Shown in pieces: positions 6,713 through 35,598 of a stretch of DNA of 64,000 nt. Each line of letters starts with the position of its first letter. Positions within the stretch are counted from its first letter, which is position 1. Below the pieces are notes generated by a model that saw only the letters and a list, made by a program, of their open reading frames with translations, was not told the origin of the DNA and did not search any database. Both the position numbers and the translations under genes were made by a program. This DNA is from an archaeon (GTDB taxonomy: Archaea; EX4484-52; WAPT01). Location of the stretch: positions 62,001 through 126,000 of the forward strand of contig JAPDKB010000008.1 of assembly GCA_029258795.1 (NCBI GenBank). Direction: 5' to 3'.

Positions 6713-6928
6713 TTAGCACACAGCAACATTTATGCCCAGCACATCCAAAAAGCTAACTATGATACTTGCGATATCACAAGCTATTCCCTGAATCTTGTCC
6801 AAAAACCCTCCTTCTTTTGTCAGGAAAATGAAAATAATCATACCTACAAACAGTGCCAGCATTATCAATCCGAACTCAGTTAATCCAAGCTCAATCCCCT
6901 TTCGTCTCATGGTGAGTTGATGGTTCAT
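6713..6928 (-). CDS. Small type IV pilin-like protein, 71 aa
   Basis: The N-terminus has a short basic leader ending MRRKG, followed directly by a 25-residue hydrophobic helix (ELGLTEFGLIMLALFVGMII), the layout of prepilins cut by archaeal prepilin peptidase after Gly. After a short KEGGF linker comes a second amphipathic/hydrophobic helix. The ribosome binding site AGAGGT overlaps the stop codon of the 35-aa gene upstream, so the two are translationally linked. An internal ATG (MRRKG) is an alternative start. Its exact role (major subunit, minor pilin or membrane peptide) cannot be decided. Confidence 0.7.
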   Translation of the reverse strand: MNHQLTMRRKGIELGLTEFGLIMLALFVGMIIFIFLTKEGGFLDKIQGIACDIASIIVSFLDVLGINVAVC

Positions 6929-6941
6929 GCTAATTCTACCT

Positions 6942-7049
6942 CTAAGGTCTTCCTAAATAATTGAAAGCTGTAGCAAAGAGCACATATAACAGCAATAGCC
7001 CGAGTAAAAGCATTAACAGAAGGCTGACCGAAAGGCCTGCTTTTTTCAT
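6942..7049 (-). CDS. Tiny pilin-like membrane peptide, 35 aa
   Basis: A short gene of 36 codons starting at ATG 7049. The product begins MKKAG and continues as one hydrophobic helix (LSVSLLLMLLLGLLLLYVLF), again a basic leader, Gly and helix as in mini-prepilins. A TATA-like element (CCTTAAATATG on the minus strand) lies about 20-30 bp upstream and GGTAAGG directly precedes the ATG. The stop is followed by the ribosome binding site for the 71-aa pilin-like gene. Support is compositional and contextual only. Confidence 0.5.
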   Translation of the reverse strand: MKKAGLSVSLLLMLLLGLLLLYVLFATAFNYLGRP

Positions 7050-7054
7050 CCTTA

Positions 7055-7093
7055 CCACAACATATTTAAGGGAGGACAACAGATTTATAAGTT
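7055..7093. promoter_or_regulatory. Divergent promoter between the two pilin operons
   Basis: The sequence ACATATTTAAGGGAGG is AT-rich and near-symmetrical, so it can serve as TATA element in both directions: leftward for the 35-aa and 71-aa genes and rightward for the long pilin/radical SAM operon. A second AT-rich box (GATTTATAAG) lies just before the first rightward gene. Confidence 0.45.
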
Positions 7094-7288
7094 ATGTACT
7101 GCTCTTTAAGGAAAAGAAAAGGAGCTTCATATATAGAAATCATATTTTTGGTGTTATTGCTTGCATTCATCACATTTTTGTTTGTGGCTTTGTTCCGGCA
7201 CTGGGACATTAGCCTGGATGAAAAGGTTAAAAATGCTTTTGACACTGTTATGGCGAAAGCTCAGGAAAAGTTCGGGGTGGTGTTTTAA
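7094..7288 (+). CDS. Type IV pilin-like protein with Glu5, 64 aa
   Basis: The leader MYCSLRKRKG is followed by ASYIEIIFLVLLLAFITF. Cleavage after Gly would leave Ala1 and a glutamate at position 5, the hallmark residue of type IV pilins that pairs with the next subunit's N-terminus. After the helix only about 35 residues remain, much shorter than typical pilins. It is the first gene of a rightward operon in which successive genes abut or overlap to 12174. It is probably processed by the prepilin peptidase encoded at 34660-35598. Confidence 0.75.
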   Translation: MYCSLRKRKGASYIEIIFLVLLLAFITFLFVALFRHWDISLDEKVKNAFDTVMAKAQEKFGVVF

Positions 7289-7480
7289 ATGGGAAGGAAG
7301 GGTATGGATAAAGTGGTGTGGATAGTTCTGAGTGTGTTATTAGCATTTGTTGTTGTTTATTTAGCTATCAAAATAACGGGTGGTAGCTTTTTTGGGTTTG
7401 AAAGCCTAGTACATAGTGGGCTCGAAGAATCAAACCAAACAATTAATGAAAGCATAGAAAATATAACAAAAGGTTGGTGA
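7289..7480 (+). CDS. Type IV pilin-like protein, 63 aa
   Basis: It starts directly after the preceding stop. The leader MGRKG is followed by MDKVVWIVLSVLLAFVVVYL, matching the basic-Gly-hydrophobic pattern of archaeal prepilins, although Glu5 is absent. The remaining exported part is about 35 residues and contains two N-x-S/T sequons (NQT, NES) plus a third (NIT), so it may be N-glycosylated on the cell surface. It belongs to the pilin/radical SAM operon. Confidence 0.7.
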   Translation: MGRKGMDKVVWIVLSVLLAFVVVYLAIKITGGSFFGFESLVHSGLEESNQTINESIENITKGW

Positions 7481-7486
7481 TGTGTT

Positions 7487-7993
7487 ATGAGACCGCTGAA
7501 AAAAGGTTTCTCATTTTCTATATCCACCATAGCAGTGATTTTTCTCGTAGTGATAGTGATAGCCATCATTATTAAGTTCTATGGGGGAAGTATAGTTCCC
7601 CATCTCAATACTACTAAACTCAATATAGGTAGACTTGGTAATGTTACTACCACTATCGTTAATGAATCAACTTCCTCTTATCTCAACCCCTCAGGTGGCT
7701 CATCCAGTAGCTCATCTTATACTTTGACTCTATCGAATATGGGTGCTGGAAGCGGTAATAATTGTACCATAAACCTCAATGTCACTGATTCAAACAACAA
7801 GCCAGTTCCGAGTATAACCGTTACCGCACGGTATGACACCACATCTTCGAGCTGTACAAGCCAGAATGATGGCTCCTGTAAGATAGAAATTCCAAAACCT
7901 AGCCAAGAAGTAAACGTCTCTATCACTTGTTCTGGTTGCAATTCATTATGCATTAAAACAAACCCCTCATGTGGTAATCTGGGTGGGTGTTAA
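7487..7993 (+). CDS. Type IV pilin-like protein with Cys-rich Ig-like domain, 168 aa
   Basis: The leader MRPLKKG is followed by a helix (FSFSISTIAVIFLVVIVIAI), then a Ser/Gly/Thr-rich linker (GGSSSSSS) and a C-terminal beta domain (about residues 80-168) whose pattern (CTINLNVTDSNNKPVPSITV) looks like an Ig-like/carboxypeptidase-regulatory-type surface fold. It has several Cys (CTI, SSC, DGSC, CSGC, CIK, SCG, GGC) that could form disulfides outside the cell, and many N-x-S/T sequons. This is the largest pilin in the operon and probably its exposed or adhesive subunit. Its TAA overlaps the next ATG by one base. Confidence 0.75.
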   Translation: MRPLKKGFSFSISTIAVIFLVVIVIAIIIKFYGGSIVPHLNTTKLNIGRLGNVTTTIVNESTSSYLNPSGGSSSSSSYTLTLSNMGAGSGNNCTINLNVTDSNNKPVPSITVTARYDTTSSSCTSQNDGSCKIEIPKPSQEVNVSITCSGCNSLCIKTNPSCGNLGGC

Positions 7994-8157
7994 TGAAAAT
8001 TACCAAAAAAAGTAAGGGTTATTCTTGGCTGGAGATAATATTTTTTGTGCTGTTGCTTTCTGCATTGATATTTATTCTCATGAAATTCGGTAAAGGAGCG
8101 ATAGATAAAATATTGGGGCTTGCTGACCTCGGTTGGGAGAAAGGAGGGTTGAAATGA
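7993..8157 (+). CDS. Type IV pilin-like protein with Glu5, 54 aa
   Basis: ATG overlaps the preceding stop (TAATG). The leader MKITKKSKG is followed by YSWLEIIFFVLLLSALIFIL, so after cleavage Glu sits at position 5 as in true type IV pilins. Only about 25 residues follow the helix. It is similar in layout to the 64-aa gene at 7094 (SYIEIIFLVLLL versus SWLEIIFFVLLL), so the two are probably paralogues. Its TGA overlaps the next ATG (ATGA). Confidence 0.7.
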   Translation: MKITKKSKGYSWLEIIFFVLLLSALIFILMKFGKGAIDKILGLADLGWEKGGLK

Positions 8158-8396
8158 ACAGGAAAGGACTGGTAGGAAGTCAGATCATGCTCATCATCTA
8201 CATAGTTATTTTTATAATCTGTTTAGCTCTTGCTTACATAATTCTTAATAAAATAGGCGTGCCCATTGTTGATACTTTGAAGAGGCAGTGGGGCTGGGTT
8301 AGCACAGTGGTCAAGACAGTGAGCTTTATTGGAAATGCCATTGATACTGTGATGAACATAGCTGGCAAGATATGGGGTTTTCTCACAGGCGGATAA
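8154..8396 (+). CDS. Type IV pilin-like membrane protein, 80 aa
   Basis: Start chosen at ATG 8154, which overlaps the preceding stop and follows AAAGGAGGG; an in-frame TTG at 8133 is less likely. The leader MNRKG is followed by LVGSQIMLIIYIVIFIICLA, then a second amphipathic segment with several Trp (RQWGWVSTVVKT) and a Gly-rich end. Small size and layout match the other mini-pilins of the operon. It could instead be a membrane adaptor for the peptide-modifying enzymes that follow. Confidence 0.7.
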   Translation: MNRKGLVGSQIMLIIYIVIFIICLALAYIILNKIGVPIVDTLKRQWGWVSTVVKTVSFIGNAIDTVMNIAGKIWGFLTGG

Positions 8397-8428
8397 GAAA
8401 TTAAAATTTCCAAATTGAGGTGGAAAGT

Positions 8429-8824
8429 ATGGATGAGAAAGCGAGGTCGATAGAGGTTTCTGGAAATAGCATAATCATTACTCTATCTCCATCGTTGTAT
8501 TCCAAAAACGCGGTAATGCGGGCCGCTTACAGGATGCTGGGTAATTGCAGCGCCAGGGTGCTGGGAGATGGCATAAATTCATTATCCGTTGAGCTGAGAG
8601 TGCTTGATGATGATGGGAGGGTGGACAAAGAGGATTTGGTTGACGCTTTTTTCGCTGAGCTGCTTCAGGCGGAGATGGAAGAGATTAACATGCGCAAATT
8701 CGGAGATGTGAGGAAAATGCTTCTTGAACTTGCCATAAGAGGGCTTGCAGCAGGAAAAAATGCAAATGTGGGTCAAAATCAGGATAATAAAGGTGAGGTG
8801 AATGAGGAAGAAAGAATTGTTTAG
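8429..8824 (+). CDS. hxsD: HxsD-like protein of a His-Xaa-Ser-type peptide modification system
   Basis: A 131-residue soluble protein (start at ATG 8429, 7 nt after GAGGTGG). The N-terminal half follows the HxsD pattern: a beta strand (IIITLSPSLYSKNAVMRAAY), then a helix with the conserved AAYR, then strands. The C-terminal half (DAFFAELLQAEMEEINMRKF then VRKMLLELA) resembles the HxsD segment around LLNDYxLRE. In bacterial Hxs systems this small protein always accompanies radical SAM enzymes HxsB and HxsC, both of which follow here. Its biochemical role is unknown; a substrate-binding or recruitment role is inferred. It overlaps the precursor gene by 23 bp. Confidence 0.65.
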   Translation: MDEKARSIEVSGNSIIITLSPSLYSKNAVMRAAYRMLGNCSARVLGDGINSLSVELRVLDDDGRVDKEDLVDAFFAELLQAEMEEINMRKFGDVRKMLLELAIRGLAAGKNANVGQNQDNKGEVNEEERIV

Positions 8825-9092
8825 AAAACTCAGATCTCTTGTCAAACCACCTCAACTCAATGATGATGGGGCATTGAATGTGCTCACACTTCTTGCAATT
8901 ATAAGTGCGCTCCCTCTCCTTTCCAAGCTCGCTCACTCAGTTGTAACTCATGAATGCGTCACCAACAAACAGGAATGGAGTGAGGTGGAGGGCGAGTACA
9001 ATACTTGGCTTCATAATGAGTGGAGCAACTGGATAGAGTGGGCTGATTGGAAGGAATGGTGTGAGTGGGGAAAGTGGGGAAACGGTGGTTAG
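8802..9092 (+). CDS. Trp-rich RiPP precursor candidate with seven W-x-x triplets, 96 aa
   Basis: ATG at 8802 follows AGGTGAGGTGA. Residues 1-23 are a basic leader ending DDG, 24-47 a hydrophobic helix (ALNVLTLLAIISALPLL), 48-72 a linker with HECVTNKQEW, and 74-94 a tandem array with Trp at 74, 77, 80, 83, 86, 89 and 92. Third-position residues are N, E, D, E, E, K, N; the protein ends GNGG. Further Trp are at 59 and 69. It occupies the place of HxsA, the His-Xaa-Ser repeat substrate. Aromatic-x-x triplets are the substrate signature of radical SAM cyclophane (triceptide) enzymes, so each W-x-x is a candidate three-residue crosslink. The leader-Gly-helix pattern could also make it pilin-like. 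Confidence 0.7.
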   Translation: MRKKELFRKLRSLVKPPQLNDDGALNVLTLLAIISALPLLSKLAHSVVTHECVTNKQEWSEVEGEYNTWLHNEWSNWIEWADWKEWCEWGKWGNGG

Positions 9093-9096
9093 ACAG

Positions 9097-10008
9097 ATGA
9101 GACTCATGCTCAAGAAGGCTTACTGCGTGTTCGGATATCAGTGCAACAATAACTGCAGGATATGCGCGGTCAGCTCGCAGGAGAGAGCGAGAAAGGAGCG
9201 GATCGGCACGGAAGAGCTCGTAAACTTTCTTATAGGGCTCCCACGCGAAATAAGGATTGTGGAGATTTCTGGAGGGGAGCCAACAATAAGAAGTGATTTT
9301 TTCACCGTTCTTGAAAAGGTAAGCAGTGAAAAACCCCATCTGAAATATCATCTTCTCACAAACGGAAGAATGCTGTCTTCAATCACCTTTGCGGAAAAAC
9401 TTGCAGACCTCCCTGTGGATTTCATAATTACGGCTCTTCACTCCGCCACACCGGAGAGACATGACTGGATGACCAGAGCTGAAGGAAGTTACATGCAGAC
9501 CATACAGGGTGTGAGAAACGCTTTAGATATGGGGTTTCGAGTCTCCCTAAAAACAATTGTGAATAAATCTAACTACAGAGAGCTGGAAAATATAGCAACT
9601 TTTGTCTGCTCTAGGTTTGATGACATCGATTTCTTTTCTTTTCACGCGCTTGACCTGACGGGAAATGCTCTTAAACACGCTTCCGAAGTTGCCGTAAGGA
9701 TGAGTGAAACCATCGATAATCTTCTTAGGGCTGTGACCATCCTTGACTCCTCGGGAATTAGAGTCAGGATATATGGATACCCTTACTGCATGGTGTCCGA
9801 AGACCTCTGGAAATATATTGCACCACAACCAAAACTGATTTACGGATATAAATCTCCATCACTGGAAATTGTAAACCAGAAATTTGATGATAACTACGGT
9901 CTGCTCGATGTTTGCGAGGGCTGCTCGCTCAGATACAAGTGCTCGGGATTGTGGTATACTTATGTCGAGTTTTTCGGCAAAGATGAGATTGTGCCAGTAG
10001 GAGGGTGA
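9097..10008 (+). CDS. hxsC: Radical SAM peptide maturase, HxsC type
   Basis: A 303-residue radical SAM enzyme. Start set at ATG 9097 (MRLMLKKAYC), 8 nt after GGTGG; a longer frame from 9061 would overlap the precursor gene. The [4Fe-4S]/SAM motif is CNNNCRIC (Cys 16, 20, 23), followed by SGGEP at about 62-66. Near the C-terminus CEGC-x5-C-SGLW gives three further Cys that could bind an auxiliary cluster. Layout, size and pairing with the next gene match HxsC of His-Xaa-Ser systems. The inferred substrate is the Trp-rich peptide just upstream. Confidence 0.75.
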   Translation: MRLMLKKAYCVFGYQCNNNCRICAVSSQERARKERIGTEELVNFLIGLPREIRIVEISGGEPTIRSDFFTVLEKVSSEKPHLKYHLLTNGRMLSSITFAEKLADLPVDFIITALHSATPERHDWMTRAEGSYMQTIQGVRNALDMGFRVSLKTIVNKSNYRELENIATFVCSRFDDIDFFSFHALDLTGNALKHASEVAVRMSETIDNLLRAVTILDSSGIRVRIYGYPYCMVSEDLWKYIAPQPKLIYGYKSPSLEIVNQKFDDNYGLLDVCEGCSLRYKCSGLWYTYVEFFGKDEIVPVGG

Positions 10009-11387
10009 AGGACGTGTACCTACTCAACGATGTACTCGAAGATAAATTGGACGGGAACAGAACTCTTCTCACCACGAGGTATGGAAGCTGGGTCATACTT
10101 ACAGAGGATGATGTAAAGGCTCTGAGGTCCGGCAAGGCTGATGAGGAACTTCTTCAGAAGCTGGAAGAGGCGGGGATCATACTCACCGAGAGGAACATCA
10201 GATCAGAACTGGAAAAAATCGTCAGGAGGTTTGGATACCTTTACAATATGCCGTTTCTCAACGTTCAGATCAATCTGACCCTGAGGTGCAATCTTTTATG
10301 CAAGTATTGTCACGCAAACTCTAGTCCAAGCTCAAGGCTGGAGATGGACAGAGATATCCTGCTTGATGTCGTAAGATTCCTTGAGCGCCTGCCGAAAACC
10401 TACATTTCCCTCGAATTTCAGGGTGGAGAACCCTTTCTCAAGTTTGACCTAATGGAGGAGCTCGTCGAGAGGGTGCGGAATGAGGTCAAGGATAAAAAGG
10501 TGGTCGAGACTGTGGTGATTTCCAACGGCACCGTTATCGATAAGGATATAGCAAGGTGGGTTGCTAAAAATAACGTTTCTGTTTCCGTGTCGCTTGACGG
10601 TCCGAAGGAAATGCACGATTCTCAGCGCGTTTATCCAAATGGCAAGGGAACTTACGAAGATGTTTTGCATGCCATCACACTGCTGCGGGATGCCGGGGGT
10701 TTTCCAACTTCCACCGCGACCATCACAAAGAACACCGTTAAGCTCGGAGGTGCGGAAAGGGTGATTGAGGAGTATGTTAAGAGGGGGTTTCCATTCATCT
10801 TTTATAGACCCATCATGGATGCGGGGCGTGGGGAGGATAACGAGGAGCTTGCACTGAGAGCTGAGGAGTTCTTCGAGTTTGTTAAGGGAAGCATTGAGAA
10901 GGTTGTGCAGCTGAAGCGTGAGGGTGTTGTTTTTAGGGATAAGTTTGTCGAAAAATTCCTTCAGAATATTTTTGGAAAGGGTACGCGTTCCTATTCATGT
11001 CTGCGCGATGTGTGTGGGGCAGGAATTACGCAGCTCGTGGTGGCTCCGGATGGTTGGCTGTATCCGTGTGATGTTATGAAGGTCTTGCCGGAATTCCGGG
11101 TCGGAAGGCTCGAGAACCAATACGAGGAAGTTATGATGAATGTGCTCAACAGCATGATGGTTCTGCCGGACATCTCCGCTGAGTGTCCTTCCTGTCCCTA
11201 CATAGCGTTCTGCGGTTTCTGCAAGCGGTGGAACTACGGAATATCCCGCTCACTGCTGCCGTACCACTTCCTGAGCGAGGACTGCAAATTCAAAAAAATG
11301 TTTTTCAAGTACATATTTCAGAATCTGAAATTCTTCCGTAAAAATGTGGACTGCTTTGTGGTTGAGGAGGGAGTGAGGTATGACTAG
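10005..11387 (+). CDS. hxsB: Radical SAM peptide maturase, HxsB type
   Basis: A 460-residue radical SAM/SPASM-type enzyme starting at GTG 10005, which overlaps the previous stop (GTGA) after TAGGAGGG. The N-terminal 80 residues form a small domain seen in HxsB (LLTTRYGSWVILTEDDV). The cluster motif is CNLLCKYC (Cys 95, 99, 102), GGEP follows at about 143-146, and the C-terminus has a SPASM-like set: CLRDVCGAG, YPCD, CPSCPYIAFCGFC and a late DC. Two paired radical SAM enzymes plus HxsD are diagnostic of Hxs systems. The expected chemistry is C-C or C-N crosslinking of aromatic-x-x motifs; the actual product is unknown. Confidence 0.8.
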   Translation: MKDVYLLNDVLEDKLDGNRTLLTTRYGSWVILTEDDVKALRSGKADEELLQKLEEAGIILTERNIRSELEKIVRRFGYLYNMPFLNVQINLTLRCNLLCKYCHANSSPSSRLEMDRDILLDVVRFLERLPKTYISLEFQGGEPFLKFDLMEELVERVRNEVKDKKVVETVVISNGTVIDKDIARWVAKNNVSVSVSLDGPKEMHDSQRVYPNGKGTYEDVLHAITLLRDAGGFPTSTATITKNTVKLGGAERVIEEYVKRGFPFIFYRPIMDAGRGEDNEELALRAEEFFEFVKGSIEKVVQLKREGVVFRDKFVEKFLQNIFGKGTRSYSCLRDVCGAGITQLVVAPDGWLYPCDVMKVLPEFRVGRLENQYEEVMMNVLNSMMVLPDISAECPSCPYIAFCGFCKRWNYGISRSLLPYHFLSEDCKFKKMFFKYIFQNLKFFRKNVDCFVVEEGVRYD

Positions 11388-12174
11388 CTGCTTTCGCTAT
11401 TTTTATCTGGTTTCCGCCCTCATCATGATTATCCTTGCGTTTCACATAACCAAAAGTTTTGTTCTCACATCCGCTCTTGTGTTCGCTTCCTTTTTTGGAG
11501 CAACCCTTCTTGCCATCGGGAAGGAATATGGATGGAGTGTTGTCTTTTCTGCATTTCACACAGCTATGAAAACACTCTCTCTTCTTATGCTTTCATTCAG
11601 TTTGCTGTTTTCCCTCTGCAAACAGGCGGTGGATATTAATTCCTTTTTATTGTTCATCCTGCTACTTTTCTCTTCGGTGAGTGCAGGAGCGATTGTGAAG
11701 CGTGCAGAAAATGTGTTGAGGTTCTGGCATGCGCTGCTACTTCTTGGATTTGCGCTTTCCGTTTACTTCCACTTTTACTTCATTTTTCTCAAAATTTCGG
11801 CCTTGCTCTTCATGATTTACGCAACCCCTTCCCTTACAACCCTACAGGTTGAGGTCTCTGAAAAGATTGTGGGAGAGTTCCCCGCAGAGATTGTGAAGGT
11901 CAGCAAGAAAGGTGTGAAAAAGGAAAGAATTTCTGTTTCTAAGATCAGGCTGGCACGCGCGGCCTTTTGCATCAGTAAGGGAGAGGTTATTGCCCAGCCC
12001 TTCAGAAGGCTGGATGATGCAGCGGTGAAGCTGTTGAAGAAAGCAGGGGTTAAGGAAATAAGGATTCAGAGGAAGGTGCTCCCGCAAAATATCTTTTTTC
12101 TTTCGATTCTCCTGTTCTTCCTTCTTATCCTTCTGGTAGCTCTACTGAATACGTTCCGAATGACTGTGGTGTGA
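11380..12174 (+). CDS. Membrane protein with prepilin-peptidase-like C-terminal domain but no catalytic Asp
   Basis: A 264-residue polytopic protein: about five helices in residues 5-150, a soluble section (155-235) and a final helix (240-260). The soluble part (ISVSKIRLARAAFCISKGEV, then DDAAVKLLKKAGVKEIRIQR) resembles the C-terminal cytoplasmic part of the archaeal prepilin peptidase at 34660-35598 (GDVLAED, LTKQDVDFIKKAWKSGK). Neither catalytic Asp motif of A24 peptidases is visible in the membrane part, so it is probably non-catalytic. It overlaps hxsB by 8 bp and ends the operon, suggesting a transport, anchoring or assembly role for the pilins or the modified peptide. Confidence 0.65.
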   Translation: MTSCFRYFYLVSALIMIILAFHITKSFVLTSALVFASFFGATLLAIGKEYGWSVVFSAFHTAMKTLSLLMLSFSLLFSLCKQAVDINSFLLFILLLFSSVSAGAIVKRAENVLRFWHALLLLGFALSVYFHFYFIFLKISALLFMIYATPSLTTLQVEVSEKIVGEFPAEIVKVSKKGVKKERISVSKIRLARAAFCISKGEVIAQPFRRLDDAAVKLLKKAGVKEIRIQRKVLPQNIFFLSILLFFLLILLVALLNTFRMTVV

Positions 12175-14353
12175 TGGCTGTATTGGAAATTATATCGTCA
12201 GGCACACACGTCTCTGTTCCTCCGTTGCATTTGTTGTCATCAACATTCACGTTCACGATGAATCGCAGAACTACTGGAGTCCACTTATTCTGCGAGACAT
12301 CGAAGAGCTTGTATTTGGAATCGATAATTTCAACCAGTATTTTCAGATCCTTGAAGATGTAACGGTGGTAGTATTTCATAGTGCATTTGTGCCAATAATT
12401 CCATGCGATTTTGCACTTCCACTTTGGACAGCAATATTTATAACAATCCACATGAGGGGGTGGTTTCTGGATTAGCACCTGCCTTTCCACATGAATCAGG
12501 TTCTTATCTGTCCCTTCAATCTCCAGACCGCATCCAGAAGTGATGGTTTCGGTTACGGTTTTTTTTGCAAGCGTGTCTTTGTTTTCCACGAGTTCATTGA
12601 TTAACTCGTCTATTCGTGAAATGTAAGAATTATAGCTGCTATTTACGGTTAAGCAGAAGTCATCTATACTAGTTGTGTGTATACTTGAACATGCTGATTG
12701 AATGGAGTTGCACAAATCGTAAATATAGGGGGAATTGCAATATTCTTCAAGTTTTGGTGTGGTATCGTGAAACACAGAGCTAGGCAAATGGCCTGAACAA
12801 ATTACATTTACTCCCTCTTTTAGCGAATTACACCTAGAAATAAGATCTGAGCAATCTTCGTCCGTGACTGTTCCGGCTGCGCATATCGTGTCTATTTCTC
12901 TTCCCAGATCTTCCCTATCCGGGTTATAACCCATGAAATCGTTTATTGCGTTAAGTGTGTCATCATCCGTTCTATCAAGGGTGATGCTTCCCGCTTTACT
13001 CGGTGTTGCACTGTCACAGCACGGCTTCTTGTTGTCGTTCACACTCTCCCAAACATGCTTATCATCAAGATAGATGAGCTTCCATCCTATTCCTTCTGCA
13101 GAGCTCGCATTGAGATCGGCTTCAAGCTCGCTGAGAGCGCTTGTTATGACATTTTCAAAATCTGCTTCACCATATGTTGGTGTCTTATCCTCAGGACAAT
13201 CGTTACAAGTTAAAGGTCTGCAAACTTCCTCGCTTTCCTCTGTATAGTAATCCTGTAGCTTTTCATTGGACTTTTCAAATATCTTCCTTATCAACCATTC
13301 CTCAATGTTATCCACAAAGGTGTTGCCATAGTTCACCATCAATCCAAGCCTGGTGGAAACGTTCGTTTCGGTAAACATGTTGGAATGCAGCATGACCGTG
13401 ACCTTACCCTCTCTAGAAACTCTCGTTACGTTCATCCCTTCACTCATCCACACACTTCCGTGGATAGTATTTGTTGATGGGTCAAAAGTCACGTTGGGTT
13501 TTGATCCTTTGAAAGTCATACCATACATGTTGGTGGGTGTCCCTCTATAGTACTGTTCAAGATACCTTTCCATTATTTCCTGAATCATATCTCTACCACA
13601 ACCTACAGCGGAAAACTTGTTGGAGTCCTTATGCTTGTATATGGTCGCCACGATTCCGCGAAGCTTAACAGTATTGTTTCTGGATGCTTTGATTTCTATT
13701 CGATTTCCTTCTATAGAATCCCCTTTCAGGAAGTAAACACCCGTGTGATTTGCATTCATTAGTATTGTGCCTCCTGATTTTATAGTCACTGTCGCGTTTT
13801 TGAGGAAGTAGAGAGTTAGCATAACCTCTCCGACTCTGAACCCGGGATCCACGCTGAACTCTATAGTGGTGGGCACTCTTCCAATCCACCCATTGAAATC
13901 CTTGAAATATGAGATGGGTTTGTAAACCTGCATCCCTGTTCCCTCCGCTTGAACCCAGTAGAGCACATACTCTCCATCAACATCTTCTATCCTCATACAA
14001 CCCCTATCCACACCCTCAAAATTCACTCTCATGTTCAGAACGTACTTTCGATTGCCGCTTTCATAAGTTATACCGTTTTCAGCTATGAGCTTGGACGTTA
14101 TCATTCCATGCGATGCGTAGTCAAGAACTGTTTTCATCATCGCAAATATTAGCGCTGGCTGTTCCTGACTTTCCTTTATCATCGATATCTCGAATTTCCC
14201 TTTCTCTATGAAATTTCTCAGCACTTCACCCTCTATTATTTGCATCGCCTCAAAAGTTCTGGTTAGCATAACCCAAGAGGCAAAAGCTACCCACACCATC
14301 AGGAGTAACGCTACTGCCAAAACCGATGCAAATCCCTTATCCCTATCTTTCAT
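12125..14353 (-). CDS. Large pilin-like surface protein, 742 aa
   Basis: The leader MKDRDKG is followed by a hydrophobic helix (FASVLAVALLLMVWVAFASW), the layout of a prepilin, and then about 700 exported residues. The ectodomain mixes beta-rich segments with many N-x-S/T sequons and a Cys-rich region (about 400-650, including CRPLTCNDCPED, CCDSATPSK and KYCCPKWKCK). It resembles large minor pilins or pilus-tip adhesins in architecture; no specific domain is recognised. It is the last gene of a leftward four-gene set and overlaps the 230-aa gene start by 4 bp. Its 3' end overlaps the end of the rightward operon by 50 bp. Confidence 0.75.
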   Translation of the reverse strand: MKDRDKGFASVLAVALLLMVWVAFASWVMLTRTFEAMQIIEGEVLRNFIEKGKFEISMIKESQEQPALIFAMMKTVLDYASHGMITSKLIAENGITYESGNRKYVLNMRVNFEGVDRGCMRIEDVDGEYVLYWVQAEGTGMQVYKPISYFKDFNGWIGRVPTTIEFSVDPGFRVGEVMLTLYFLKNATVTIKSGGTILMNANHTGVYFLKGDSIEGNRIEIKASRNNTVKLRGIVATIYKHKDSNKFSAVGCGRDMIQEIMERYLEQYYRGTPTNMYGMTFKGSKPNVTFDPSTNTIHGSVWMSEGMNVTRVSREGKVTVMLHSNMFTETNVSTRLGLMVNYGNTFVDNIEEWLIRKIFEKSNEKLQDYYTEESEEVCRPLTCNDCPEDKTPTYGEADFENVITSALSELEADLNASSAEGIGWKLIYLDDKHVWESVNDNKKPCCDSATPSKAGSITLDRTDDDTLNAINDFMGYNPDREDLGREIDTICAAGTVTDEDCSDLISRCNSLKEGVNVICSGHLPSSVFHDTTPKLEEYCNSPYIYDLCNSIQSACSSIHTTSIDDFCLTVNSSYNSYISRIDELINELVENKDTLAKKTVTETITSGCGLEIEGTDKNLIHVERQVLIQKPPPHVDCYKYCCPKWKCKIAWNYWHKCTMKYYHRYIFKDLKILVEIIDSKYKLFDVSQNKWTPVVLRFIVNVNVDDNKCNGGTETCVPDDIISNTAITPQSFGTYSVELPEG

Positions 14354-15042
14354 TTGAACACCTCTGCTGTTGCAATCCCTTCAGGTAACTCTTTGTTATT
14401 GGCATTAACAAATAAGAGTGTGTAATTTACTGCGGGATAATATTCTTCAGATGGTGTAGGGATAAACACTTCCTCCTTGAAAAGATACTTACCCCCAACA
14501 CACTTACCAACATCGTAAGGGTAACGGAGATGGTGCTGCCATGTAGGTGTATTCACAAACTTGTTATAAAAAACTCTCTGGGGAAAGTGTCTCTCCCCAC
14601 TGCCAACTATAGAGGGTAGAGAGGGTGGGGGTGTGCATTCATCCGGCCCTTGCGGAGATGGGAGCATTAGCTTTACTGTGTTGTTCAGATTGACTTTACC
14701 CTTAACACCACCATAATCAATATACACTTCACTCCATCCAGGAATGAAATGATTAACTTGAGATAAATCGTGCTGCGCTCCGTAAGTGTAAATGCCCAGC
14801 AGTTCATCAATCTGGAGTGTGCTGCGCTCACCCGAGTCAAGTGTTGGTTTTACATTGAAGTATGTTAAATAGGTGGATGCGTTTCTCTCCGTAGCGTAAT
14901 ACTGAATTACAGCCCCGATTGACTTGAAATTCTTCAGCCACGGCATGAAAATGGAGATGACTAGTGTTAATGTTATCAGGAGCACGAATACAGGTAGCTC
15001 CAATCCAAGCGCCTTATTTCTGTATTTTTTAAACATCGTCAC
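14350..15042 (-). CDS. Pilin-like surface protein, 230 aa
   Basis: The N-terminus (MFKKYRNKALG then LELPVFVLLITLTLVISIFM) is a basic leader, Gly and hydrophobic helix, so this is probably a prepilin-peptidase substrate. The ectodomain of about 190 residues has several sequons and a few Cys (DECT, GKCVGGK). No known domain is recognised. It overlaps its neighbours by 4 bp on both sides (the 742-aa gene downstream and the 159-aa gene upstream), so the set is translated as one operon. Likely a minor pilin of the same pseudopilus-type complex. Confidence 0.7.
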   Translation of the reverse strand: MTMFKKYRNKALGLELPVFVLLITLTLVISIFMPWLKNFKSIGAVIQYYATERNASTYLTYFNVKPTLDSGERSTLQIDELLGIYTYGAQHDLSQVNHFIPGWSEVYIDYGGVKGKVNLNNTVKLMLPSPQGPDECTPPPSLPSIVGSGERHFPQRVFYNKFVNTPTWQHHLRYPYDVGKCVGGKYLFKEEVFIPTPSEEYYPAVNYTLLFVNANNKELPEGIATAEVFK

Positions 15043-15518
15043 CGCCCTTCAAGAGTTACGTTCAGGTATGTGAATTCCACGATTACTGGATATCCGTCAT
15101 CTGTGGATAGATGATACTTCATGGTAGCGTTTAGTTTTTTCCCTGCCACGTTTTTGAAGGTTTTTCTGGAAAGTACATTATTAAAGTCTGGAGTGTAGAT
15201 TGTTATGTTGAGAATGTATTCAATATCATCTCCAAGACAGGGTAGTGGTGCGCCATCGGGTGTGCTTTCTATAAACGTTCGGTTTAAAATGAACCACCTT
15301 CTATTGTTTAGAGAGTCGTTCGCAAGCAGGCAGCTATCGGTGATTATCTTGTTGGCGTAAGCTTCCATTAATCTGGCTCTGGCTAGCTCATCTATCGTTT
15401 TTGCGTTCATACCGGATTCAGCTTTATATACTAAGAGAGCTGCTGATGCGATTATGATGAGCACCATGGCACTAAATACCTGGGTGTATGGGAGCCCTCC
15501 TTTCATTGCTTTCAACAT
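15039..15518 (-). CDS. Pilin-like surface protein, 159 aa
   Basis: The leader MLKAMKGG is followed by LPYTQVFSAMVLIIIASAAL, with Gln at position 5 of the predicted mature protein where pilins normally carry Glu. The ectodomain is about 125 residues with several N-x-S/T sequons and two Cys (DSCLL and PCLGDD). It overlaps the 145-aa gene upstream by 7 bp and the 230-aa gene downstream by 4 bp. A minor pilin role is inferred from layout and operon only. Confidence 0.7.
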   Translation of the reverse strand: MLKAMKGGLPYTQVFSAMVLIIIASAALLVYKAESGMNAKTIDELARARLMEAYANKIITDSCLLANDSLNNRRWFILNRTFIESTPDGAPLPCLGDDIEYILNITIYTPDFNNVLSRKTFKNVAGKKLNATMKYHLSTDDGYPVIVEFTYLNVTLEGR

Positions 15519-33320: not shown

Positions 33321-34682
33321 ATGGACCTCCCTAAGGTTGAAAAGCCAACTCCTGTTCAAATTAGGAACTACTATTCCCAGCCAGAACTCATGGAGTTCAT
33401 GTTTGAAGTTGCAAAGCAGAGGGAGTTCGTGCCCGTGTATGACGGAAAATATGGCAAGAGGCCTGACATGCTGAACATGCCCGGAGATCTTAAAACCATG
33501 ATTCTAAGTGGCGCTACATCCTTCCACATGTCTGTGGAGAGGTGGCACAACCCTCTTAACCTCAGCAACGAGATGAGGCCGGATGAGATTGAGAAGCTGC
33601 GTGCCGGCTGGGACCTGATTCTTGATATTGACTGCAATGAGGGCTACATTTATGCGAGAGAAGCTGCGTTGATTCTTGTTAAGGCGTTGAAAGCGCACGG
33701 AATAAAGAATGTTTTCGTTAAGTTCTCGGGCAGCAGGGGTTTTCATGTTGCCGTGCCGTTCGAGTCCCTTCCAAAAGAGGTGGAGGGCAAGCCCATCCAG
33801 TCGTTTTATCCGGAACTGCTGCAAGGAATAGCAGCTTATCTCAAACACCTGATAAAGGAAAAGCTTGGCCAGGAGCTTTTGCGCAAGTATCCGGAGCTTT
33901 ACGAAAAGATTGCTGTTGATGATGAGAGGGTTGATCCTTACAAAATCATGGAGATAGAGGAAAACTGGTCGGTCAGGCATCTGTTCAGGGCTCCTTACTC
34001 CTTAAACGAGAAGACGTGGTTGGTTAGCACCCCCCTAAGAGTTGAGGAAATTCCATCGTTTAAAGCCGAGATGGCAGCAATTGAAAGAGTTAAGGTTGGA
34101 AGCGCGGGATTTCTGACGAGATGGGAGGAGGGTGAAGCGGAAAACCTTATATTTGAGGTGCTGGATTTCATGAGCAGGAGGGTGGATGAAAAAAGATTGA
34201 GTGTTTCCTCCGAGGTTGAGAGAGGTGCTGGCTTCAGAGAGGTGAGGAGTGACGCTTACCTTAAAAACAGAGTTGATGAAAGGTTTTTCCCTCCATGCAT
34301 AAAGAAAGGGCTTGAAGGGCTTGAGGATGGTAGAAAGAGGTTTCTGTTCGTGCTGATTAACTTTCTAAAATTGATGAGGTGGAAGCCAGAGGAGATAAAG
34401 AGTTTGGTGTGGGAGTGGAACAAAAGGAACAAGGAGCCGCTCCGCGATTCATATGTCAGGGGTCAGCTAAAATATGCTTTCAAGAAGCAGATGGCTTACA
34501 TCCCTCCGAACTGCGATAACAAGGATTATTATCCAGACATAAAAATTTGCGAGAAGGACTCATTGTGTGAGAAGATAAGAAATCCCTTATCCTATACTCT
34601 CACCAGATACACGCTCTACCTCAAGAAGTCGGGAAAAAAGAGAGGGAGGAAAATCGGAACTAGAACAGGTAAAAGAAAATGA
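33321..34682 (+). CDS. priS: Fused archaeal DNA primase (PriS catalytic domain plus PriL-type Fe-S domain)
   Basis: A 453-residue single-chain primase. The PriS part (about 1-300) has the catalytic D-x-D in LILDIDCNEG (Asp 102 and 104), SGSRGFHVAV (about 137-146) and a later VDDERVDPYK. From about residue 320 the sequence turns into a PriL C-terminal domain: FPPCIKKGLEGL, then IPPNC, KICEKDSLC and NPLSYTLTRY. These four Cys match the 4Fe-4S ligands of the large subunit. Separate PriS is about 330-350 residues, so this is a fusion, as known for Nanoarchaeum. The end is Lys/Arg-rich. It overlaps the convergent peptidase gene by 23 bp. Confidence 0.9.
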   Translation: MDLPKVEKPTPVQIRNYYSQPELMEFMFEVAKQREFVPVYDGKYGKRPDMLNMPGDLKTMILSGATSFHMSVERWHNPLNLSNEMRPDEIEKLRAGWDLILDIDCNEGYIYAREAALILVKALKAHGIKNVFVKFSGSRGFHVAVPFESLPKEVEGKPIQSFYPELLQGIAAYLKHLIKEKLGQELLRKYPELYEKIAVDDERVDPYKIMEIEENWSVRHLFRAPYSLNEKTWLVSTPLRVEEIPSFKAEMAAIERVKVGSAGFLTRWEEGEAENLIFEVLDFMSRRVDEKRLSVSSEVERGAGFREVRSDAYLKNRVDERFFPPCIKKGLEGLEDGRKRFLFVLINFLKLMRWKPEEIKSLVWEWNKRNKEPLRDSYVRGQLKYAFKKQMAYIPPNCDNKDYYPDIKICEKDSLCEKIRNPLSYTLTRYTLYLKKSGKKRGRKIGTRTGKRK

Positions 34683-35598
34683 ACCCGTATTTTGCCGTTA
34701 CCAGCAATGATAAAAAGAAGGTTGGAGCGTAGCGCACACCTTCCTTTATCTTGATTTTACCCTTTCGCTCCGTCTTCAGCTTTCCGGATTTCCATGCTTT
34801 CTTTATGAAGTCCACATCCTGTTTTGTCAGACCCACGAAAAGCTTTGAGCTGAACCTTTTCGTTGGAGTTTTGACATCTTCAGCGAGCACATCCCCCTCC
34901 TTCAACTTTTGGATGCTTATGTATCTCATAAAAACGTTTCTATCAGCATGTCTGGCGAAGTTAAGCAGGATGAAGAGCAGGAACATGATCGCGGTGTATT
35001 TAGCTCCCACTAAAACCATCTCCATTGCGATGCTCTCGTTGAGTGGAGAGAGGTAAAGATACGCTGTGCAGCCCATCACCAGAGGTATGGAAGCCACCAC
35101 ACCTTTAATCCGCATCCCTTCAAAGCTGGCTTTCAGCAGCTCACTTTTCTTCTCAGCATATAAAAGCGCGTAAATCAGGGTAAAGAGGATAGCATATATT
35201 GCTCCTACCACAAAACAGTTTATGAGAAATGCGACGGGGTAGAAAAGTAAGTGATTGACAGCCATCAAATTCGGGTGGAAGAAGCTCAGCGGTTTTGGTA
35301 CTGCAAATCCTATCGATGCTAAAATCAATACGTCAGCTTCACCCCACTGTCCTGTGGAGAAAAGCGCGTATCCCAGCACGAGGAAAATTGTGGCTGTGGC
35401 AAAAGCTATGAATATGTCATCCCACTGGGAGAAAACCACACCCCTGCCAAGATAAATCAGAAGTGCTCCCACAAAACCCCCAAGCGGAACAAAATCTGGG
35501 ATTTCGGTGGTTTTGATATCATATATTGCTCCTGCAAGGGATGTTAGACATGCTATCAGGAAAAGCGTGTGGTCTGAGAGGATGAGCGAGACATCCAT
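34660..35598 (-). CDS. Prepilin/preflagellin peptidase, A24 family
   Basis: A 312-residue aspartic membrane protease that removes leader peptides of archaeal prepilins and archaellins. First catalytic motif GAIYDIKTTEIPDF (Asp about 26), second GQWGEADVLILAS (the G-x-x-D site, about 88-100), set among about six to eight helices. The C-terminal cytosolic domain (LKEGDVLAEDVKTPTKRF, LTKQDVDFIKKAWKSGK) is related to that of the membrane protein ending the pilin operon at 12174. This enzyme is the best candidate to process the pilin-like proteins at 6.7-16 kb. Confidence 0.9.
   Translation of the reverse strand: MDVSLILSDHTLFLIACLTSLAGAIYDIKTTEIPDFVPLGGFVGALLIYLGRGVVFSQWDDIFIAFATATIFLVLGYALFSTGQWGEADVLILASIGFAVPKPLSFFHPNLMAVNHLLFYPVAFLINCFVVGAIYAILFTLIYALLYAEKKSELLKASFEGMRIKGVVASIPLVMGCTAYLYLSPLNESIAMEMVLVGAKYTAIMFLLFILLNFARHADRNVFMRYISIQKLKEGDVLAEDVKTPTKRFSSKLFVGLTKQDVDFIKKAWKSGKLKTERKGKIKIKEGVRYAPTFFLSLLVTAKYGFIFFYLF

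Follow-up and report, generated by a model that had tools for sequence, protein, structure and literature searches.

A probable Trp-substrate variant of the Hxs radical SAM peptide system in an archaeal pilin gene block

We analysed a 64,000-nucleotide stretch of the archaeal contig JAPDKB010000008.1 (the window, at its full length) and a block of ten close-packed rightward genes within it, at 7094-12174, whose coordinates and strand were confirmed. The block encodes homologues of HxsB, HxsC and HxsD, a Trp-repeat peptide, a membrane protein and five mini-pilins of class III type. By gene content and order, the three Hxs homologues, the W-x-[N/D/E] peptide, a catalytically stripped relative of A24 prepilin peptidases and the pilins with class III signals make up one conserved unit. 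The system is very probably a variant of Hxs with a Trp substrate. On balance, we favour the reading that this variant, set in a type IV pilus-like block, would make a cyclophane peptide acting at the cell surface with the pilins. The source assembly comprises 1.17 Mb at 96% completeness, and database records matching the window's relatives carry the labels Candidatus Nanohalarchaeota, Nanohaloarchaea or Aenigmatarchaeota, i.e. DPANN. Comparisons within the GTDB phylum of the window cover 34 genomes from a single order, and HxsB relatives were gathered from 101 genomes and 84,980 species genomes.

Homologues of HxsB, HxsC and HxsD

In NCBIfam, the three proteins match HxsB, HxsC and HxsD best (scores in Table 1). 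This agrees with the first-pass annotation, made from the sequence alone, which had proposed the relationship and a profile search to check it, though all three proteins score under the curated equivalog cut-offs. The HxsB model leads the other NCBIfam models by more than 100 bits, HxsC is the best match by far for its homologue, and HxsD is the sole match of the third protein. Among the enzyme families compared, the nearest to the HxsB homologue is HxsB and not GrrM/OscB, XyeB or FxsB; ranthipeptide and sulfatase maturases are further NCBIfam relatives. Its radical SAM and SPASM cysteines are invariant across the alignment, and the HxsC homologue carries a CX3CX2C motif and a C-terminal Cys cluster. 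A PHROGs search returned just generic radical SAM matches. Classical archaeal HxsB proteins score 408 and 456, above the TIGR03978 cut-off; HxsB, HxsD and HxsA4 of classical archaeal loci all clear their NCBIfam cut-offs, whereas their W-type counterparts do not.

The HxsD homologue was tied to classical HxsD by an iterative profile search. Its predicted model, with a predicted local distance difference test score (pLDDT) of 85, consists of two beta hairpins around a helix and a long C-terminal helix. The model has weak matches only, led by Rpb11/L-type subunits of RNA polymerase (Foldseek E 1.8e-3); Z scores reached 7.4, a level typical of common arrangements. Among these fold matches there was no winged-helix recognition element of the kind found for ribosomally synthesised and post-translationally modified peptides (RiPPs), which does not exclude its presence.

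The 15 W-type HxsB sequences form one clade (support 100/98), and so do the W-type HxsC sequences (99/91), in agreement with HxsB. Outside the W-type loci, every repeat peptide recognised in the neighbourhood, archaeal or bacterial, is of the His-x-Ser kind; the scan recognised no repeat peptide in about half of the non-W-type loci. Automatic labelling missed a few short W peptides, which were identified by visual inspection; L069 and L072 lie on the contigs already represented by L038 and L043. From these trees it is well supported that the repeat changed from His-x-Ser to Trp-x-[N/D/E] in one monophyletic enzyme clade, a switch that had been suggested beforehand in the looser form Trp-x-x. 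Both kinds occur in some genomes, e.g. G030, which holds the W-type loci L039/L044 and the classical-clade locus L060.

The wider family varies in composition. HxsC is 587-588 amino acids (aa) long at the W-type loci L046, L047 and L049, where two radical SAM domains are fused in tandem (shown for L046), and is present as two genes at L048 and L050 (other W-type families); the doubling is an old duplication. In an HxsB clade formed by L074, L078, L080 and L082, HxsC and a pair of HxsD keep one gene order, and no repeat substrate was recognisable close by. HxsA-like leaders are fused to big C-terminal domains at L079 (4104-5741, 545 aa) and L086 (10393-12060, 555 aa), and in the HxsB tree L086 branches as sister to the W-type clade. 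The Leptospira phage record KF114877.1 includes an annotated hxsB gene (80258-81481), so Hxs genes can move on phages.

The Trp repeat and its register

The peptide of the window contains nine Trp in 96 aa, including a run of seven at an exact period of three (WSNWIEWADWKEWCEWGKWGNGG). Chance Trp richness was ruled out, as 0 of 100,000 shuffles reached such a run. Over the 45 W-x-x-W steps of the non-redundant W-type peptides, N, D or E stands at +2 in 35 of the 45, compared with 8/45 at +1 (p 1.5e-8), so that the repeat described in the first-pass annotation as W-x-x is refined to W-x-[N/D/E]. Classical Hxs peptides carry Ser at +2 in 423 of about 485 steps. No NCBIfam match was found for the window peptide, and it is not a His-x-Ser (HxsA) substrate. 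Relatives of the peptide are present in 15 of the 34 genomes of the phylum.

The enzymes OscB and XncB join Trp at position i to Asn, Asp or Arg at i+2 (PMC11002830). Because the +2 N/D/E register matches their known Trp-Asn/Asp links, we think it rather likely that cyclophanes are the main modification here. An aromatic-x-x motif with an accepted +2 residue stands beside a radical SAM/SPASM enzyme, as for the triceptide enzymes (OscB/GrrM, XncB/XyeB, MscB/FxsB). Unlike those, the enzyme belongs to the HxsB lineage, has an HxsC partner and HxsD, and faces many consecutive motifs; the system is archaeal and lies beside pilins.

The aligned peptides share a basic n-region, a Gly (G23) that is invariant in 14/14, a hydrophobic segment, A/V at -3 and A/S/T at -1 of a putative cleavage site, a conserved Cys and then the repeats. 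Read plainly, this layout suggests that the peptide is exported and cut by signal peptidase.

Other Trp repeats were also observed. W-x-W repeats with Cys (NHCWNWSWCWCWSW) occur in the peptides of L040 (3289-3618), L044 (5685-5978) and L052 (1950-2279), where the cross-link may be a different one, and short Trp motifs occur at L039 and L043. At L195 of genome G018 (contig C90, 299-2442) a radical SAM/SPASM enzyme is followed after 15 bp by a probably exported protein of 344 aa whose repeats comprise 40 W-x-[N/D] units (N or D at +2 in 40/40) and few Cys. It resembles the window's system in phylum, repeat register and probable export of the repeat protein. It differs in its enzyme, which is nearest DynA/sulfatase-maturase models (best model DynA), and HxsC and HxsD were not found on its short contig. 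As judged from these features, the pair is an independent Trp-repeat system in the window's own phylum.

The gene block, its pilins and its membrane protein

Inter-gene gaps in the block reach at most 32 bp (8397-8428), and the remaining genes are 0-6 bp apart or overlap, as had been described before. Divergent mini-pilins (6713-7049, minus strand) and convergent larger pilin-like genes (12125-15518, minus strand) frame it. The 44-bp region ahead of mini-pilin 1 contains TATA-like boxes on both strands that are kept in three species, from which we infer a divergent promoter of archaeal layout. In both congeners, G001 and G002 (three species in all), the whole block stands in the same gene order beside ileS. 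Since gene order and the putative divergent promoter are conserved, these data support one transcription unit from mini-pilin 1 onward. Further out, the core (W-peptide, HxsC, HxsB, membrane protein and a facing large pilin) is repeated across the phylum, and the large pilin-like protein is homologous across those W-type loci whose sequence extends far enough. The association of pilin and Hxs genes, for which a neighbourhood survey had been proposed, is thus well supported by the conserved neighbourhoods.

Table 1. Coordinates of features in the window and the basis of each assignment
Feature	Position	Strand	Basis
Divergent mini-pilin, MRRKG/IELGLTEFGL...	6713..6910	-	class-III-like motif; orthologue in same place in G001, G002
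Divergent mini-pilin, 35 aa, MKKAG/LSVSLLLML...	6942..7049	-	pilin motif; orthologue in G001, G002
Putative divergent promoter region, 44 bp	7050..7093	none	TATA-like boxes ATATTTAA (+) and TTATAAAT (-)
Mini-pilin 1, 64 aa, RKG/ASYIE	7094..7288	+	motif, synteny
Mini-pilin 2, 63 aa, RKG/MDKVV	7289..7480	+	motif, synteny
Pilin 3, 168 aa, KKG/FSFSI	7487..7993	+	motif, synteny; weak Ig/CarboxypepD_reg-like tail
Mini-pilin 4, 54 aa, SKG/YSWLE	7993..8157	+	motif, synteny
Mini-pilin 5, 80 aa, RKG/LVGSQ	8154..8396	+	motif, synteny
HxsD homologue, 131 aa	8429..8824	+	TIGR03976, 33.3 bits, E 4.7e-8; cut-off 50
Trp-repeat substrate peptide, 96 aa	8802..9092	+	relatives in the phylum
Period-3 Trp repeat	9021..9089	+	C-terminal end of the peptide
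HxsC homologue, radical SAM, 303 aa	9097..10008	+	TIGR03977, 177.4 bits; cut-off 267.9; PF04055
HxsB homologue, radical SAM/SPASM, 460 aa, GTG start	10005..11387	+	TIGR03978, 265.5 bits; cut-off 370
Membrane protein, truncated A24 prepilin peptidase relative	11380..12174	+	family-profile hhalign
Large pilin-like protein, 742 aa, DKG/FASVLAVALLL	12125..14353	-	convergent; homologues at W-type loci
Pilin-like protein, 230 aa	14350..15042	-	pilin screen, congener synteny
Pilin-like protein, 159 aa	15039..15518	-	pilin screen, congener synteny
Intact A24 prepilin peptidase	34660..35598	-	PF01478 above cut-off

In every mini-pilin of the block and flank, a hydrophobic helix follows [K/R]G or [K/R]AG. 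A crude screen for class III signals ([K/R][G/A], then about 20 hydrophobic residues) was passed by 5/5 mini-pilins, the two divergent ones and the three larger pilin-like proteins. The earlier count of five mini-pilins holds for the signals, although the third is a 168-aa protein with a weak tail resembling Ig and carboxypeptidase-regulatory domains. Mis-called pilins were ruled out, as seven mini-pilins and the larger ones keep their order in two congeners. The block resembles archaeal type IV pili in these signals, and the genome provides three loci with an ATPase and two platform genes each together with a single intact A24 prepilin peptidase (Table 1), which is the probable processor of the block's pilins; assembly ATPase, platform proteins and prepilin peptidase are thus all present in the genome. 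The block departs from such pili in that it lacks ATPase and platform genes and combines its pilins with a non-catalytic A24 relative and a radical SAM peptide system.

The membrane protein itself has no Pfam match, and its relatives match PF06819 weakly. When family profiles were compared, it aligned with the A24 peptidases (hhalign probability 99.4%, E 2.5e-21, 231 columns, template columns 105-349), which bears out the suspected relationship to prepilin peptidase and refines it, the catalytic part being lost. The W-type protein corresponds to the last two thirds of A24 peptidases; both catalytic Asp (D22 and D82 of the A24 alignment) are absent, since homology begins after them at column 105, and no Asp of the pair is conserved in the family alignment. 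An active prepilin peptidase inside the operon was therefore ruled out. An AlphaFold2 model from five sequences (pLDDT 51) was not usable.

An intact A24 peptidase lies within 1.7 kb of HxsB in 16/26 archaeal and 10/44 bacterial classical Hxs loci, counting only loci with enough flank. It was seen near HxsB, mostly immediately before HxsD, at L051, L064, L065, L070, L077, L079, L084, L088, L092-L095, L105, L107, L109, L114, L117, L118, L121, L123, L127, L133, L134, L142 and L145. Because it adjoins many classical Hxs loci, these data suggest a general tie between Hxs and pilus-type processing.

Compared with known Hxs systems (TIGR03976/77/78, NF038309, NF038313), the block thus has homologous HxsB, HxsC and HxsD, a short exported period-3 repeat peptide with a hydrophobic leader segment, and a prepilin-peptidase relative as neighbour, as in many loci. 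It departs from them in having Trp for His and N/D/E for Ser, one HxsD where many classical loci have two, enzymes under the family cut-offs in a clade of their own, a truncated pseudo-peptidase, and pilin genes in or facing the operon.

Proposed mechanism, alternatives and significance

In the reading that we favour, HxsD and both radical SAM enzymes would bind the N-terminal part of the peptide, and HxsB, perhaps with HxsC, would bond the Trp ring (i) to the beta-carbon of Asn, Asp or Glu (i+2). About seven such links, of -2 Da each, would give a stiff chain of three-residue cyclophanes. The hydrophobic segment would drive export, and the A-x-A/S signal-peptidase-type site would release or trim the peptide. 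The membrane protein may act as a non-catalytic adaptor linking peptide and pilins, and the product may join the co-transcribed pilins in a role on the cell surface, e.g. in attaching to a host cell. Host-cell attachment is common among DPANN archaea. That the product functions in or on a pilus-like structure is a serious candidate, to which we give slightly less than an even chance.

Several points weigh against this reading. Leader homology between the W-peptide and HxsA reached an hhalign probability of 15.7%, which is no more than suggestive, and in some lineages W-x-W or short motifs stand in place of W-x-[N/D]. Upstream of the core, the five mini-pilins were found in the genus only. The Trp repeat occurs in none of the pilins, and the peptide is simply their neighbour. 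No demonstrated HxsB/HxsC chemistry was found in the literature searched, and the role of these enzymes has been treated as putative (PMC9062424).

The absence of the repeat from the pilins would also fit a freely secreted, modified RiPP (signal, toxin or antagonist) that only shares operon and regulation with them; size and leader layout are RiPP-like, and the residues at -3 and -1 suit release by signal peptidase I. We consider such a product unlikely, however, as pilin genes border the core throughout the phylum and head the same operon in the genus, the membrane partner descends from a prepilin peptidase, and the block holds no recognisable gene for immunity or for a dedicated exporter. 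Still less probable is that the peptide is itself a pilin-like subunit, with G23 as the prepilin-peptidase site and the Trp repeat as an exposed tail. The window peptide reads N-D-D-G and not [K/R]G and fails the pilin screen, its A-x-A/S site favours signal peptidase, and the local A24 relative is without catalytic residues. On the other hand, the Gly is invariant, relatives that read K-T-G followed by 18 hydrophobic residues pass the screen, and active A24 peptidases stand beside HxsD in many classical Hxs loci.

The chemistry could differ as well: the peptide might carry Cys thioethers, epimerised or hydroxylated residues or Trp-Trp links, or serve as a scaffold for a metal or redox cofactor. 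Cys in many repeats, the W-x-W runs of other lineages and the kinship of HxsB to ranthipeptide and sulfatase maturases point in this direction, yet thioether chemistry would give no reason for the consistent N/D/E at +2, and the second system, in G018, has N or D after every Trp and few Cys. Such a modification is to our minds improbable, about as much so as free secretion, and cyclophanes are the chemistry we prefer.

The first-pass annotation knew of no archaeal system combining these elements. Archaeal Hxs alone is not new, as classical loci are common in DPANN archaea; neither Trp-type Hxs nor the association of Hxs with prepilin peptidase was found in the literature searched, an incomplete search that does not establish their absence. 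Likewise, no product or role of Hxs systems was found in that literature, though the systems are widespread.

Evidently, Trp can take the place of His as the aromatic repeat residue with spacing and enzymes retained. This suggests that the two kinds share ring-to-beta-carbon cross-linking, and the Trp clade offers a directly testable substrate. The A24 peptidase that recurs beside Hxs in archaea and bacteria, and has decayed here, is a clue that Hxs peptides may act in pilus-like surface structures. In its boldest form, which we regard as doubtful, the proposal is a surface appendage of some DPANN archaea in which cross-linked Trp-x-Asn/Asp cyclophanes form a chain, as a component or as decoration: an aromatic rod, encoded in the genome and stiffened covalently, that would combine pilus-type assembly with a dead prepilin peptidase as adaptor; Hxs in both domains would then serve surface-fibre maturation and not make classical RiPP antibiotics. 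If true, a radical-SAM-modified peptide would be tied to an archaeal surface appendage.

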